This document shows positions 613 to 9,048 of a stretch of 9,183 nt of DNA, one piece after another. Both the position numbers and the translations under genes were made by a program. The notes below the pieces were generated by a model. That model saw only the letters and a program-made list of their open reading frames with translations. It was not told the origin of the DNA and did no database searches. The stretch comes from an uncultured Gemmatimonadota bacterium (GTDB lineage: Bacteria; Gemmatimonadota; Gemmatimonadetes; Gemmatimonadales; GWC2-71-9), in the NCBI GenBank assembly GCA_913009915.1, contig CAJVYZ010000078.1:1-9183 (forward strand). Direction: 5' to 3'. Within the stretch, counting starts at the first letter, position 1. Each line of letters opens with the position of its first letter.

Positions 613-616
<4 letters not shown>
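131..616 (+). CDS. moaB: MoaB/Mog family molybdenum cofactor biosynthesis protein (5' end missing)
   Basis: This is a 161-residue fragment starting at the adapter junction, and probably only a few N-terminal residues are missing because the family is about 160-180 residues long. Members bind molybdopterin and, in the MogA type, adenylylate it before molybdenum insertion in the cytoplasm. The fragment opens with the typical first strand LRVAILTVSDAGSRG. It contains TTGGTG at residues 68-73, then the family sequence TSRDVTPEAT (75-84) and LPGSPGG (128-134). The segment before that last motif (GRTRSGK) is oddly charged where the family usually has a hydrophobic strand, so local sequence errors are possible. 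The stop overlaps the GTG start of the downstream sigma-54 activator by 4 bases (GTGA), which suggests translational coupling. MoaB and MogA cannot be separated here. Confidence 0.88.
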
Positions 617-2127
<1,511 letters not shown>

Positions 2128-2146: not shown

Positions 2147-3967
2147 TTGCGGAGCCCGGAAGGGTTGACAATCCCGGCCTACGGCCCCGATATTGTTGAT
2201 CATCTCATCCCGTTCAAACCGGCTGGGCCTTTGCAGTTCACTATCGACGCTCCTTCCTGTGTCGCGTGTCTCGCGTGCGTCCGTGTGTGCCCCACGGCGG
2301 CGGTGGCGGTCGACGGTGAGGACGTGCGGATCGTCGACGAGGCGTGTATCCGTTGCGGCCAGTGCGTCCCGGCCTGTCCCCACGACGCCGTCAAGGTGTC
2401 CGGCCAGATCGGAAAGGCCCTGGCGGTTGCGGCCAAGGGTGACGGAATTCTTACGCTGTGCCCCGAGGCGGCAGCCCACTTCTACCCGGCCACCCCGGAA
2501 CAGGTGGTCAACGCCTGCTACGCGGCAGGGTACCGGGCCGTCTATCGCGGCATCATCGGCGACGAACTGGTGGCGGCTGAATATCAGCGACTGTGGGATG
2601 AGGAAGACTGGGGTACCATGATCCGCTCCACCGACCCAGCGGTGGCGGAGACGATCCGTACCGAGTATCCCGAGCTGGTGCCCTACCTTGCGCCGGTAGC
2701 CATCCCCGCCGTGGCTGAGGCCAGGTACCTCAGGGCCCGATATGGCCCGGAGATAGGCATCGTCTACGCCGGCATCAGCCCGCCGATCAACGATCCGGAG
2801 TTCACGGCGGCGATTACCTTCGAGGATCTTGAGTTGATCTTCCGGTTGCGTGGCGTCAGCCCTCTGTCGCAGTCAGACTACTTCGTGCGGGTGCCGGAGG
2901 AGCGGCGGCGCCACCTCAGCGCCGCCGGAGGATTGCCGCTCAAGATGTTGCAGGAAGCCCGGCACACCAGCAGCCGGTTCCTCAAGGCGCGCGGCCTCGA
3001 CGCCATCCCGGCATTGTCGCACGCCATCACGGAGACGCGGATCGACCTGGGGTTCGTCGACCTGCTATCGTACGAGGGGATGCTCGATCATCCCCTGTCG
3101 GGGCCACCGAATGAGTTGTTCTGGCGCCGGCAGTTGGTGGCCAGCACCGAGCCGCCTCGGAGTGACACCCCGGTGGTGGACCAGACCGTTGTCATGTGCG
3201 TAGGCGCCACGTTCGACATCAGGAGCCGGCCGGCCCGGCCCGACGCCGAAGCCGTGGCTAGCCTGCTCGAAGCCATCGGCACCGGACCCAACGGCCAGCC
3301 ATGGGATTGCGGGGCTTGTGGCTTCCCGACCTGCACCCGCTTCGCCGAAGCGGCGGCGCTCGGCCGGGCCACGCTGCGGCAGTGTGCCCCGTTCCAGGAA
3401 CGGCGGGCGGAGGCAGCCGCCGAGGAGGCCGCCACCGACGCGTTGACGCAGTTGGCCACGGTCAGGGTGTTGCGCGACCGCTTGTCGTACGAGGTCGAGC
3501 GGTCCAAGCGCAGCGCCGAGGGCTTTGCGGTGCTGTTCATCGACCTCGACCGGTTCAAGGAGGTCAACGACGCCCACGGCCACGAGGCCGGCAACGACGT
3601 GCTGCGGGCCGTGGCGGCCGAAATCCGCGGTGCCGTACGGGCCTCGGACCTGGCGGCGCGCTACGGGGGAGACGAGTTTGTGGTGTTGCTGATCCGGACC
3701 GACATGTCCGGGGCCGGTCGGGTGGCGGAGGCCATCCGGGCGGGTATCGAGGGGGTGGGGCGCCGGTTGGGCTATCCGGCCGGATTTGTCACCGCGAGCA
3801 TAGGACTTGCAGAATTCGACCCGGGGGACCCCGATATCGGCGATCTACTGGTCACCGCCGACCGGGCGCTTTATTTGGCTAAGTCTAAGGGCCGCAACAT
3901 GGTAGCGGATAAACCCGGCGACCGTACAAACACCGAAACCGGCCACATCAAGGCGGGCCAGACCTGA
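2147..3967 (+). CDS. Ferredoxin / [FeFe]-hydrogenase-like / FeS-domain diguanylate cyclase (GGDEF) fusion
   Basis: This 606-residue soluble protein has no membrane segment and probably makes c-di-GMP in response to a redox or gas cue. Residues 38-48 (C38, C41, C44, C48) and 67-77 (C67, C70, C73, C77) form a 2x[4Fe-4S] ferredoxin module. Residues about 98-345 resemble the large-subunit C-terminal domain of [FeFe] hydrogenases (YPELVPYLAP 174-183, ITFEDLELIF 223-232, ELFWRRQLV 323-331). The H-cluster motifs there are lost: STDP at 161-164, SPPIND at 211-216 and YEGM at 309-312 replace cysteine motifs, so no hydrogenase activity is expected. A further FeS module follows (DCGACGFPTC 387-396, plus C413). 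The GGDEF domain spans about 428-585, with FIDLDRFK (464-471), inhibitory-site RASD (498-501) and intact GGDEF (507-511). The start is uncertain: TTG 2147 and TTG 2165 are both possible. The stop overlaps the next ATG by one base (TGATG). Confidence 0.9.
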   Translation: MRSPEGLTIPAYGPDIVDHLIPFKPAGPLQFTIDAPSCVACLACVRVCPTAAVAVDGEDVRIVDEACIRCGQCVPACPHDAVKVSGQIGKALAVAAKGDGILTLCPEAAAHFYPATPEQVVNACYAAGYRAVYRGIIGDELVAAEYQRLWDEEDWGTMIRSTDPAVAETIRTEYPELVPYLAPVAIPAVAEARYLRARYGPEIGIVYAGISPPINDPEFTAAITFEDLELIFRLRGVSPLSQSDYFVRVPEERRRHLSAAGGLPLKMLQEARHTSSRFLKARGLDAIPALSHAITETRIDLGFVDLLSYEGMLDHPLSGPPNELFWRRQLVASTEPPRSDTPVVDQTVVMCVGATFDIRSRPARPDAEAVASLLEAIGTGPNGQPWDCGACGFPTCTRFAEAAALGRATLRQCAPFQERRAEAAAEEAATDALTQLATVRVLRDRLSYEVERSKRSAEGFAVLFIDLDRFKEVNDAHGHEAGNDVLRAVAAEIRGAVRASDLAARYGGDEFVVLLIRTDMSGAGRVAEAIRAGIEGVGRRLGYPAGFVTASIGLAEFDPGDPDIGDLLVTADRALYLAKSKGRNMVADKPGDRTNTETGHIKAGQT

Positions 3968-4710
3968 TGGCACATAACTCGGCAGAGCAACCGGAGCTGG
4001 AACAGCGAGGCAACCAGCCGATCGGCGGGCCCGACGCGCCCGACCCCTGGGGGGTCCGGCGGGCCGAGAACCTGCTGACCAGCCTGGAGGGCGTGCTGTC
4101 CGCCCGGGTGGTGACCACACCGCTGGGCGAGGTGACCGAGGTCCACATCCTGGCGCAGGCGGGGCTGAGTCCCAAGCAAGTGGTGCGGAATGTGGAATCG
4201 GCGATGCTGGCCCAGCTGGGGCTCAAGGTCGATCACCGCAAGATCAGCGTGGCCCAAACTGCTGACGTCAAGCCGATCGAGATCCTGGAACAACAGGCCG
4301 TGCGCGAGCAGATACTGCAGCGTTCGGTGTTGTTCGAGGACCTGCAGGTAATGCCGGGGTCGCGGCCGCATAGGATAGGGTTGACTGTCAGTCTGTCGTA
4401 TAACGGCATCCGCGAGACAGCCGAGGCGGAGAGTTCCGACACGCCACGGAGCCGAGTGGAGGCGGCTGCGCGGGCGACGATCAACGTGTTGGACCGGTTG
4501 CTGGACGATTCGTCGGTGGCGCTGGAGGGGGCCAAGATCGTGGAAGCGTTCGATCGGGAATTTGCCTTCGTGGCGGTGCAGGGGTTGGGGGGTCGCGAGA
4601 CGTTGCTGTTGACCGGCACGGCCGAGATCCGGGAGAGTAGCGAGCGGGCGGCGGTGTTCGCCGTGCTCGACGCCACCAATAGATGGACCGAATTGCGCCG
4701 ACCGAAGTAG
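3967..4710 (+). CDS. Conserved hypothetical protein with two alpha/beta modules, translationally coupled to the GGDEF gene
   Basis: This is a 247-residue soluble protein of unknown function. After a disordered, Gln/Pro/Gly-rich start (1-28), residues about 31-97 read as helix, two strands (LSARVVTTPLGEVTEVHILA), helix and strand. That is an ACT- or ferredoxin-like pattern, with the conserved-looking SPKQVVRNVESA and DHRKISVAQ. A charged helical linker (about 103-120) leads to a second module (about 119-242) with a strand SLSYNG, the signature SDTPRSRVEAAARATI and a last helix VFAVLDATNRW. I recall similar two-module proteins as uncharacterised actinobacterial families, but cannot verify this here. 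The ATG shares one base with the GGDEF gene's stop, so the two are probably made together, and the protein may be a partner or ligand-binding subunit of the sensor. No catalytic motif or cysteine cluster is visible. It is the last gene of the high-GC operon. Confidence 0.8.
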   Translation: MAHNSAEQPELEQRGNQPIGGPDAPDPWGVRRAENLLTSLEGVLSARVVTTPLGEVTEVHILAQAGLSPKQVVRNVESAMLAQLGLKVDHRKISVAQTADVKPIEILEQQAVREQILQRSVLFEDLQVMPGSRPHRIGLTVSLSYNGIRETAEAESSDTPRSRVEAAARATINVLDRLLDDSSVALEGAKIVEAFDREFAFVAVQGLGGRETLLLTGTAEIRESSERAAVFAVLDATNRWTELRRPK

Positions 4711-4945: not shown

Positions 4946-5053
4946 ATGTCGCTGAGAAGTGTAGCTACTGCGTCCAACGAAGATTCCTTGATCAGCAAGG
5001 TCATGGCAATCATCCTTGGGCTCTTCATGGCTGTCGACCAAACTTGGGAATAA
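4946..5053 (+). CDS. 35-residue small protein with hydrophobic core (putative membrane or signal peptide)
   Basis: A short ORF follows a perfect Shine-Dalgarno sequence: ATG at 4946, TAA at 5051-5053. The peptide begins MSLRSVATASNEDSLISK. It continues with a hydrophobic run VMAIILGLFMAV (about residues 19-30) and ends DQTWE. The hydrophobic run is short for a full transmembrane helix, but could anchor the peptide or be an amphipathic or secretion segment. There is no cysteine. It lies 40 bases upstream of the best start of the HD-GYP gene, within the loop of a long inverted repeat. It could be a leader peptide that controls HD-GYP translation, a small membrane partner of that protein, or a peptide signal sensed by it. 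I recognise no family. The evidence that it is translated is the ribosome binding site and the tight placement. Confidence 0.6.
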   Translation: MSLRSVATASNEDSLISKVMAIILGLFMAVDQTWE

Positions 5054-5093
5054 CAGCCATCTAAGGTCGGGTCCCCTTCTTCCTCCATCCTCC

Positions 5094-6503
5094 ATGTCAA
5101 GAGCTCTAGGAATAGGACGGTATGTGGCGTTCGTTGGTGTTGCGGCTATTGCTGCCATCATCAGCCTCTGGCCGTTTAGAGAACCGTTCCCAGGCCTGTT
5201 TGAATTTGCGAGTTTTGTACTCGTCGGGGTACTCGTCGAGCGGCTGAATACCCAACTCCGAGTTGGTGCACATGGGTCGATCGTCTTCTTAGTTTACCTC
5301 ACAACGGCAATTCTATTCGGCGGCGTCTGGGGGGCGCTGATGGCGGGCTTGGCCACTGGGATTAGCCAGTTAGTGAGAGGAATTGCACCGATCAAGTTGG
5401 TCTTCAACGTTTCCCAGAGGGTTCTTTCAGTCACTATTGGTATGATCGTCTACCGTCTTCTTGGGGGCGGTATCCCACCTGAGTTCCTGAAAACAGTCGG
5501 TACGATCAGCAGTTCCGCAGTCCAGCGGGATCTTCTCCTCTTCTTTGCGTTCGCAGCTACCTACTTTGGTGCCAATTCTGTCCTTGTTTCGGGGGCCGTA
5601 TCTATAAGTACTGGGAGGCCGCTGAGAGAAGTTTGGGATCTAAATACACGAGGCATGATCGGCTATGATCTGGGCTCGAGTGCCGCCGCGTTGCTCCTTG
5701 CGTGGTTTTACGTTCGAGCCCAGACAGTGATCCCCTTTGGCTTGGGACCTCTAAGTCTAGTATTGGTGATCTTCCCTGTCGTCGTCCTACGGCATATTTA
5801 CGGGTTGTATTTCAGGCTGCAGGAGAGTGGGAGAGAGCTTCTTCAGGTTATGGTCAAGGCGATTGAGGCACGGGATCCATATACTTCCGGTCACTCAATT
5901 CGCGTGTCTAGCTTGGCGAGATCGATCGCGGTTCACCTCGGCCTTTCAACCAAGGCGTTAGAAGAGATAAGCACTGCGGGTCTTCTCCATGATGTTGGGA
6001 AGATCCATGAAGAGTTCGCTCCGCTACTTCGAAAGAATGACAAACTCACGGATGAGGAGTTCGCGCTGCTACAGACACATTCTGTGAAGAGTGCTGACTT
6101 AGTAGGGATTATCTCTAGTTTCCGTGGGCCGATTCAATCAATGGTCCGCAGTCATCATGAGCGGTGGGATGGACACGGCTATCCTGATGGATTGGGTGGA
6201 GAAGAAATACCGCTTGGCTCTCGGATCATTATGGTGTCAGACACCATTGATGCCATGACGACGGATCGACCTTACAGAAATGCGATGCCCCTGGACCGAG
6301 TGATTTCTGAGCTGCAGCGCTGTAGTGGGACCCAGTTCGACCCACATCTCGTTGAAGTTGTGCTGTCATCGCTGGCAGTCCGGCGGTTGATGGCAGAGCA
6401 ATCTGGACAGCAGCTTCCAGCCGCACTGCAAAACATGGACACGACAGGAGGCTCCCAGCGAGTTGTCAAGTCTCCAGCACTCTTCCGGAAATCTGGGCGG
6501 TAG
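5094..6503 (+). CDS. Multi-pass membrane HD-GYP protein, probable c-di-GMP phosphodiesterase
   Basis: From ATG 5094 the protein has 469 residues. Residues about 10-232 contain roughly seven hydrophobic segments (near 10-26, 36-49, 62-85, 100-123, 147-170, 193-207 and 215-232), forming an integral membrane sensory region of MASE-like character whose ligand is unknown. The cytoplasmic HD-GYP domain follows, with TSGHS (H267), HDVGKI (299-304), QTHS (H329), HHERWDGHGYP (354-364, GYP at 362-364) and SDTIDAM (382-388). The metal-binding residues look complete, so hydrolysis of c-di-GMP is predicted. No good ribosome binding site precedes ATG 5094, where the upstream bases are pyrimidine-rich. GTG 5124 after AGGAATAGGA, or TTG 5016 inside the small ORF, are alternatives. 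Spot counts give about 55% GC, lower than the operon upstream. It opposes the activity of the GGDEF protein encoded 1.1 kb upstream. Confidence 0.93.
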   Translation: MSRALGIGRYVAFVGVAAIAAIISLWPFREPFPGLFEFASFVLVGVLVERLNTQLRVGAHGSIVFLVYLTTAILFGGVWGALMAGLATGISQLVRGIAPIKLVFNVSQRVLSVTIGMIVYRLLGGGIPPEFLKTVGTISSSAVQRDLLLFFAFAATYFGANSVLVSGAVSISTGRPLREVWDLNTRGMIGYDLGSSAAALLLAWFYVRAQTVIPFGLGPLSLVLVIFPVVVLRHIYGLYFRLQESGRELLQVMVKAIEARDPYTSGHSIRVSSLARSIAVHLGLSTKALEEISTAGLLHDVGKIHEEFAPLLRKNDKLTDEEFALLQTHSVKSADLVGIISSFRGPIQSMVRSHHERWDGHGYPDGLGGEEIPLGSRIIMVSDTIDAMTTDRPYRNAMPLDRVISELQRCSGTQFDPHLVEVVLSSLAVRRLMAEQSGQQLPAALQNMDTTGGSQRVVKSPALFRKSGR

Positions 6504-8982: not shown

Positions 8983-9048
8983 AGATCGGAAGAGCACACG
9001 TCTGAACTCCAGTCACACTGATATATCTCGTATGCCGTCTTCTGCTTG
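8983..9048 (+). other. Illumina TruSeq index adapter contamination
   Basis: It begins AGATCGGAAGAGCACACGTC, carries index ACTGAT at about 9016-9021, and ends with the P7 sequence TATGCCGTCTTCTGCTTG at 9048. It is the exact reverse complement of 63-128. On the minus strand it translates to the well-known contaminant peptide KQKTAYEI...WSSDVCSSDL, which spuriously extends the reading frame of the AAA/TPR gene. It should be trimmed from 8983 onward. Confidence 0.98.

Follow-up and report, generated by a model that had tools for sequence, protein, structure and literature searches.

A hydrogenase-like, probable iron-sulfur sensor without H-cluster ligands, joined to a predicted diguanylate cyclase in Gemmatimonadota

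What might a protein sense when two ferredoxin motifs and an [FeFe]-hydrogenase-like domain are joined directly to a GGDEF domain? The question is raised by a forward-strand gene on contig CAJVYZ010000078.1 of an uncultured Gemmatimonadota bacterium (assembly GCA_913009915.1), which we analysed over its full 9,183 nucleotides and call the window; in the draft genome (G000), which totals 3.47 Mb over 676 contigs at 76.5% completeness, it is numbered C78. Reading from sequence, we favor on balance a predicted diguanylate cyclase whose iron-sulfur (Fe-S) clusters would switch it according to their redox state or their exposure to oxygen.

Domains and conservation of the fused protein

The proteins of the window were compared with the Pfam profiles, each family being judged by its own cut-off. 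Two Fer4 stretches (with a Fer4_10 match at residues 33-78), Fe_hyd_lg_C (PF02906), FeS (PF04060) and GGDEF all scored above cut-off. The Fe_hyd_lg_C match is partial, its best stretch (residues 114-241) covering positions 24-170 of the 245 in the profile with 30.5 bits (cut-off 22.1); FeS reached 35.3 bits (cut-off 23) at residues 387-415 and GGDEF 132.8 bits (cut-off 23.8) at residues 428-584. The NCBIfam model for group B1 [FeFe]-hydrogenases matched residues 44-305 with 76.9 bits, far below its cut-off of 450. A first-pass annotation had described eight ferredoxin cysteines, a hydrogenase-like region, a four-cysteine module and an intact GGDEF domain with an RxxD inhibitory site (I-site). 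Each of these is borne out, the eight cysteines as two CxxCxxCxxxC motifs and the hydrogenase-like region by the very profile match whose absence that annotation had named as evidence against it. The stretch RASDLAARYGGDEF holds the GGDEF signature (residues 507-511) and the I-site (R498 and D501). With a GGDEF-type A-site and the RxxD site both present, the domain looks intact and is predicted to synthesize cyclic dimeric GMP (c-di-GMP) from GTP under RxxD feedback.

The predicted structure of the sensor half is best matched by chains of the hydrogenase CpI, as found by a second aligner run over the candidates from Foldseek, whose own top 50 for the model are GGDEF-containing chains. The modeled sensor fold is very likely a ferredoxin domain plus a hydrogenase domain (H-domain), and three [4Fe-4S] clusters are predicted. 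Spacing within the ferredoxin motifs is identical in all relatives' rows that have the four cysteines. The start codon is probably TTG 2231, giving 578 residues, rather than TTG 2147, since conservation sets in near residue 31, residues 1-27 have a predicted local distance difference test score (pLDDT) below 50 in the model, and a database protein of 96% identity is 578 residues long.

Relatives of the protein are numerous. Of 7994 candidates scored in the protein search, at least 1802 had E values of 0.001 or lower, and the genome scan gave at least 42 loci, 41 of them titled Gemmatimonadetes, Gemmatimonadota or Gemmatimonadales and one Betaproteobacteria (L045), a contig that is likely misbinned. 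Both kinds of search gave the best 120 matches from a limited scored set; among the matches listed, the organisms are, L045 apart, Gemmatimonadota or a "marine benthic group bacterium" of which no placement was made, and the closest named relative in the genome scan is a Gemmatimonadetes metagenome-assembled genome of 95% identity (L007). A sensor profile at 1e-20 matched 113 of 395 genomes of the phylum: 65 of 82 in f1, the window's own family, 18 in f7 and f9 (other orders), 28 distant matches in f2 and 2 in f11, counted by hand, with the f1 total of 82 depending on the listing order of unmatched genomes. The family as we treat it comprises the 83 genomes matched in f1 and f7/f9, in a few of which the match is a fragment; the profile covers the sensor, not the GGDEF half. 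The protein is one member of a large, conserved Gemmatimonadota family and is likely functional.

H-cluster ligands and hydrogen sensing

The predicted fold of the H-domain is that of an [FeFe]-hydrogenase. In the alignment, the four cysteines that ligate the [4Fe-4S]H cubane of the H-cluster are all absent, with D163, S211, Y309 and M312 in their places. By these ligands, the protein is not a hydrogenase. Across 404 aligned relatives, four H-cluster cysteines occur in 143, one in 66 and none in 195, with no row holding two or three; a lone P2 cysteine accounts for 62 of the 66 single-cysteine rows. Such counts would be produced by one shared cluster that is kept or dropped whole. These rows were drawn from 447 sequences (best-hit lists and fetched loci) after removal of repeats, 12 of which remained, the window's own included; they exclude L099-L104 and the second frame of L047, and their branch proportions mirror the hit lists, not nature. 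Among 392 distinct cores the split was the same in kind. A separate set that did include these had three cysteines in 4 of 290 readable rows (L100, L101, L102 and L104), in which the third motif is spaced otherwise. In the five f2 loci that were read (L100-L104), a hydrogenase-like domain stands alone; it has four cubane-type cysteines and a long low-complexity region, lacks ferredoxin motifs and in several cases has a membrane helix as judged by eye. Distant matches occur in 28 f2 genomes, twice in some.

One branch of the family retains all four cubane cysteines, in the motifs RSTCP, YAGVC and PCEGC. Even there the lysine of the P2 motif is nearly absent, with any lysine within four residues in 3 of 144 rows, one of them the true hydrogenase L099. 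In the second ferredoxin motif, C70 gives way to Val, Ala, Ser or Thr in 56 four-cysteine rows and one other row, and the theme among the relatives, as their sequences read, seems to be cluster tuning rather than loss of all clusters. On a tree of 41 of 291 rows, made by a quick method and with a very long outgroup branch, the window's branch comprises 16 rows with Asp at P1 (Shimodaira-Hasegawa-like approximate likelihood ratio test, SH-aLRT, 99), and seven f7/f9 rows have Ser there. The tree does not give the direction of change; we take the four cysteines as the older state because true hydrogenases have them.

The putative sensory [FeFe]-hydrogenases of groups C and D (M2f and M2e, represented by TmHydS and TamHydS) share with the window protein two N-terminal [4Fe-4S] motifs, an H-domain and a C-terminal Cx2Cx4Cx16C motif, which in group C lies between the H-domain and a PAS signal domain (PMC8163306). 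The window protein carries both the N-terminal motifs and the C-terminal motif but lacks the H-cluster ligands, and we hence consider it a relative, not a member, of these groups; it also differs in that HydG was not found and a GGDEF domain replaces the PAS or kinase output. Also close is a hydrogenase-histidine kinase (L099) from a deep Gemmatimonadota genome (G001), which matches positions 7-388 of the 390 in the family profile (E 6.2e-48) and has the same order of Fer4-Fer4, H-domain, PF04060 and output. It differs in retaining TTCPS, GPCIAKK and CCNGC and in having HisKA and HATPase; in HMMER alignments its TTCPS, GPCIAKK and CCNGCIMGAG fall on SCCP, MPC..K and CxGGC of solved hydrogenases.

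Could the domain nevertheless bind an H-cluster and let H2 set GGDEF activity? The predicted fold is hydrogenase-like, the domain order is that of the group C/D sensors (PMC8163306), and the window's genome encodes a [NiFe] hydrogenase large subunit, which makes H2 metabolism likely there. All four H-cluster cysteines are replaced, however, no other Fe_hyd_lg_C match was found in the window's genome, and the maturase HydG (TIGR03955) exceeded its cut-off in 0 of 83 family-carrying genomes, the best being a ThiH-like match in G366. For the 76.5% complete window's genome itself, the best HydG score was 18.6 bits against a cut-off of 312.15, in a search that covered HydG, not HydE or HydF, and the other carriers agree. 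Hydrogen sensing through an H-cluster is extremely improbable, and we ruled it out on the ligands and the maturase. The earlier proposal of a redox- or gas-responsive cyclase thus survives in its redox part, which is the most likely reading, and not for H2, given also the scarcity of the P2 lysine in four-cysteine relatives. Over the 395 genomes, HydG passed its cut-off once, in G001; G009 has a 259-bit HydG fragment, and both are f11 genomes. Partial HydG matches in L082 (from G104, an f1 genome with no family match) and L083 (from G366) score higher as ThiH and were set aside. The L099 locus adjoins a group A6-type [FeFe]-hydrogenase, HoxE/NuoE-type and NuoF-type genes, Rex, a second histidine kinase, HydE, HydG and HydF; such a locus, with its sensor kinase, second kinase, Rex and HydE/G/F, is rare in the phylum sample.

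The eukaryotic protein Nar1 is likewise hydrogenase-like without the [2Fe]H cofactor, and O2 rapidly destroys two of its clusters (PMC12621388). Nar1, which acts in Fe-S assembly, has a conserved pair of [4Fe-4S] sites, whereas the window protein has no site in its H-domain and carries a GGDEF enzyme. The four-cysteine relatives (the 143 of 404 counted above) are closer to Nar1 in this respect. In Vibrio cholerae, Bhr-DGC also fuses a metal-center redox sensor to GGDEF, although there the sensor is a di-iron hemerythrin domain rather than an Fe-S, hydrogenase-like one (PMC9388753). HydDB describes [FeFe] groups C1-C3 as histidine kinase-linked, chemotactic and phosphatase-linked and, in the part available, uses "diguanylate cyclase-linked" only under [NiFe] 2c (PMC5037454). 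Our searches of open-licence PMC papers showed no report of an [FeFe]-hydrogenase-like GGDEF protein; in the accessible part of PMC8921683, the hydrogenase and GGDEF terms belong to separate genes. The parts of the protein are ordinary and their union is uncommon.

A possible switch and its alternatives

Because the family proteins have no H2 center, the input more likely comes through the ferredoxin clusters or through damage by O2. In the redox switch that we favor, the ancestor would have been a sensory hydrogenase on a signal domain, which lost its hydrogen chemistry, kept its cluster chain and scaffold, and changed its output. Electrons or oxidative cluster damage would alter a ferredoxin cluster or the C-terminal cluster, and the altered cluster would shift the linker helix and so determine the GGDEF dimer geometry. 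Removal of c-di-GMP would fall to the HD-GYP protein, whose gene lies downstream. The distance from C413, the last cluster cysteine, to the DxLT motif is 18 residues in all 369 rows in which DxLT was found (of 400 with C413), and that from C413 to GGDEF is 94 residues in 391 of 393 rows. A helix of fixed length between a cluster and the GGDEF dimer would be a reasonable transmission element. The fixed spacing, along with the same domain order in relatives from other assemblies, excludes misassembly of the GGDEF half, a possibility that the first-pass annotation had raised.

We give an even chance to a fuller history, by which a sensory [FeFe]-hydrogenase became a c-di-GMP switch within the Gemmatimonadota. 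The diiron site would have been lost first and then the whole cubane in at least two lineages (the Asp type of the window's family and the Ser type of other orders), leaving a scaffold that reads redox state or O2 through its other clusters, while the branch with four cysteines would represent a surviving intermediate in which a Nar1-like [4Fe-4S] cubane drives GGDEF.

Several points weigh against the redox switch. Fe-S clusters can serve structure alone, and none of the genes in the window points to an electron donor. The all-or-none cysteine counts are inflated by relatedness, only two trait changes falling on the 41-row tree. Of 400 readable relatives, 135 have Ser or Thr in place of the first PF04060 cysteine, the other sites of the motif being invariant, so that four cysteine ligands are not required everywhere at this motif. 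From motif spacing and numbering, this first position would be equivalent to C379 of TamHydS, where a C379A substitution largely turned the [4Fe-4S] cluster into [3Fe-4S]; H2 did not reduce the C-terminal cluster of TamHydS, a group D protein, and the authors of that work considered it unlikely that the redox state of this cluster signals (PMC13104023).

An alternative that we hold to be unlikely, if still a serious one, is that the clusters have a structural role while the actual input comes from something else, for example a small molecule or a partner protein, for which ORF3, encoded alongside, is a candidate. The ATG of this open reading frame overlaps the cyclase stop codon by one base (TGATG), and its family occurs in 289 of the 395 Gemmatimonadota genomes. 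ORF3 matches no Pfam or NCBIfam family above cut-off; for its C-terminal half, a resemblance to the ligand-binding regulatory domain of LeuA and citramalate synthase is predicted. Quite improbable is the idea that the sensor half is a relic, with the enzyme constitutive or under I-site control only: H-cluster ligands were lost in more than one branch, possibly by decay, but the sensor is otherwise strongly constrained, with about 80 invariant columns in 45 chosen proteins (82 up to residue 420 by our own count), C124 kept in 398 of 404 relatives, and fixed cluster spacings.

If the redox switch is real, a hydrogenase fold has been reused as a signaling sensor after its hydrogen chemistry was lost, with likely intermediates surviving in relatives. 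The family would then offer a natural experiment on how signals pass through the Cx2Cx4Cx16C domain of sensory hydrogenases, here fixed 18 residues from an easily assayed enzyme output. It would also provide c-di-GMP signaling with a likely redox input in a phylum that is large and little studied.

Gene neighborhood and features of the window

Table 1. Features of the window, with positions counted from its first nucleotide
Feature	Position	Strand	Basis or remark
Sigma-54 activator (AAA+, Fis helix-turn-helix) with receiver-like N-terminus lacking the phospho-acceptor Asp	613..2127	+	Upstream in 42/42 loci with enough flank
Fe-S / hydrogenase-like / GGDEF protein	2147..3967	+	606 codons from TTG 2147
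Two ferredoxin [4Fe-4S] motifs (Cys 38, 41, 44, 48; 67, 70, 73, 77)	2243..2395	+	Frame translation, Pfam
[FeFe]-hydrogenase-like domain (residues 98-345) without H-cluster cysteines	2438..3181	+	Pfam, predicted fold, alignment
C124	2516..2518	+	Outside every cluster motif; alignment
D163 at P1 cysteine position	2633..2635	+	RSTDP; four-cysteine relatives RSTCP
S211 at P2 cysteine position	2777..2779	+	YAGIS; four-cysteine relatives YAGVC
Y309 to M312 at two P3 cysteine positions	3071..3082	+	SYEGM; four-cysteine relatives PCEGC
FeS domain PF04060, Cx2Cx4Cx16C (Cys 388, 391, 396, 413)	3305..3391	+	Sequence, Pfam
Predicted linker helix (residues 414-429), last cluster cysteine to GGDEF	3386..3433	+	Structure model; length fixed in family
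GGDEF domain (residues 428-584)	3428..3898	+	GGDEF motif 3665-3679; RxxD I-site 3638-3649
ORF3, conserved protein	3967..4710	+	Same order in 41/42 loci with enough flank
MASE9 and HD-GYP protein, predicted c-di-GMP phosphodiesterase	5016..6503	+	Same order in 20/21 loci with enough flank

The receiver-like domain of the sigma-54 activator has Thr (39) or Ser (3) at the phospho-acceptor site in 42 of 43 further rows, including L001, the window's own copy, and the activator carries GAFTGA or GSFTGA in 44 of 44 rows. This pseudo-receiver architecture, which we take to be that of FleQ and FlrA, here stands beside a diguanylate cyclase. We do not claim FleQ-like binding of c-di-GMP: the Arg-Asn pair of the FlrA-type ARN stretch, which presumably binds c-di-GMP in FleQ, is replaced by Lys-Ala in the alignment. 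Genes lying between activator and cyclase in two relatives gave no redox lead, being a MacB/FtsX-type permease in L087 and a gene without a family in L040. In L092 (5428-9168), a frame of 1247 residues joins the Fer4/H-domain/FeS/GGDEF protein to a DUF5916 match, through either a fusion or a frameshift.

Illumina adapter sequence (P7 end and index-read primer) lies near both contig ends, at 63-128 and 8983-9048, so adapter, not genomic DNA, encodes at least part of the MoaB frame before 129 and of the minus-strand AAA/TPR frame above 8982. A foreign origin for the stretch of lower guanine-plus-cytosine content from about 5100 was considered and rejected, as the HD-GYP gene is lower in this content than the cyclase gene in all six relatives measured.
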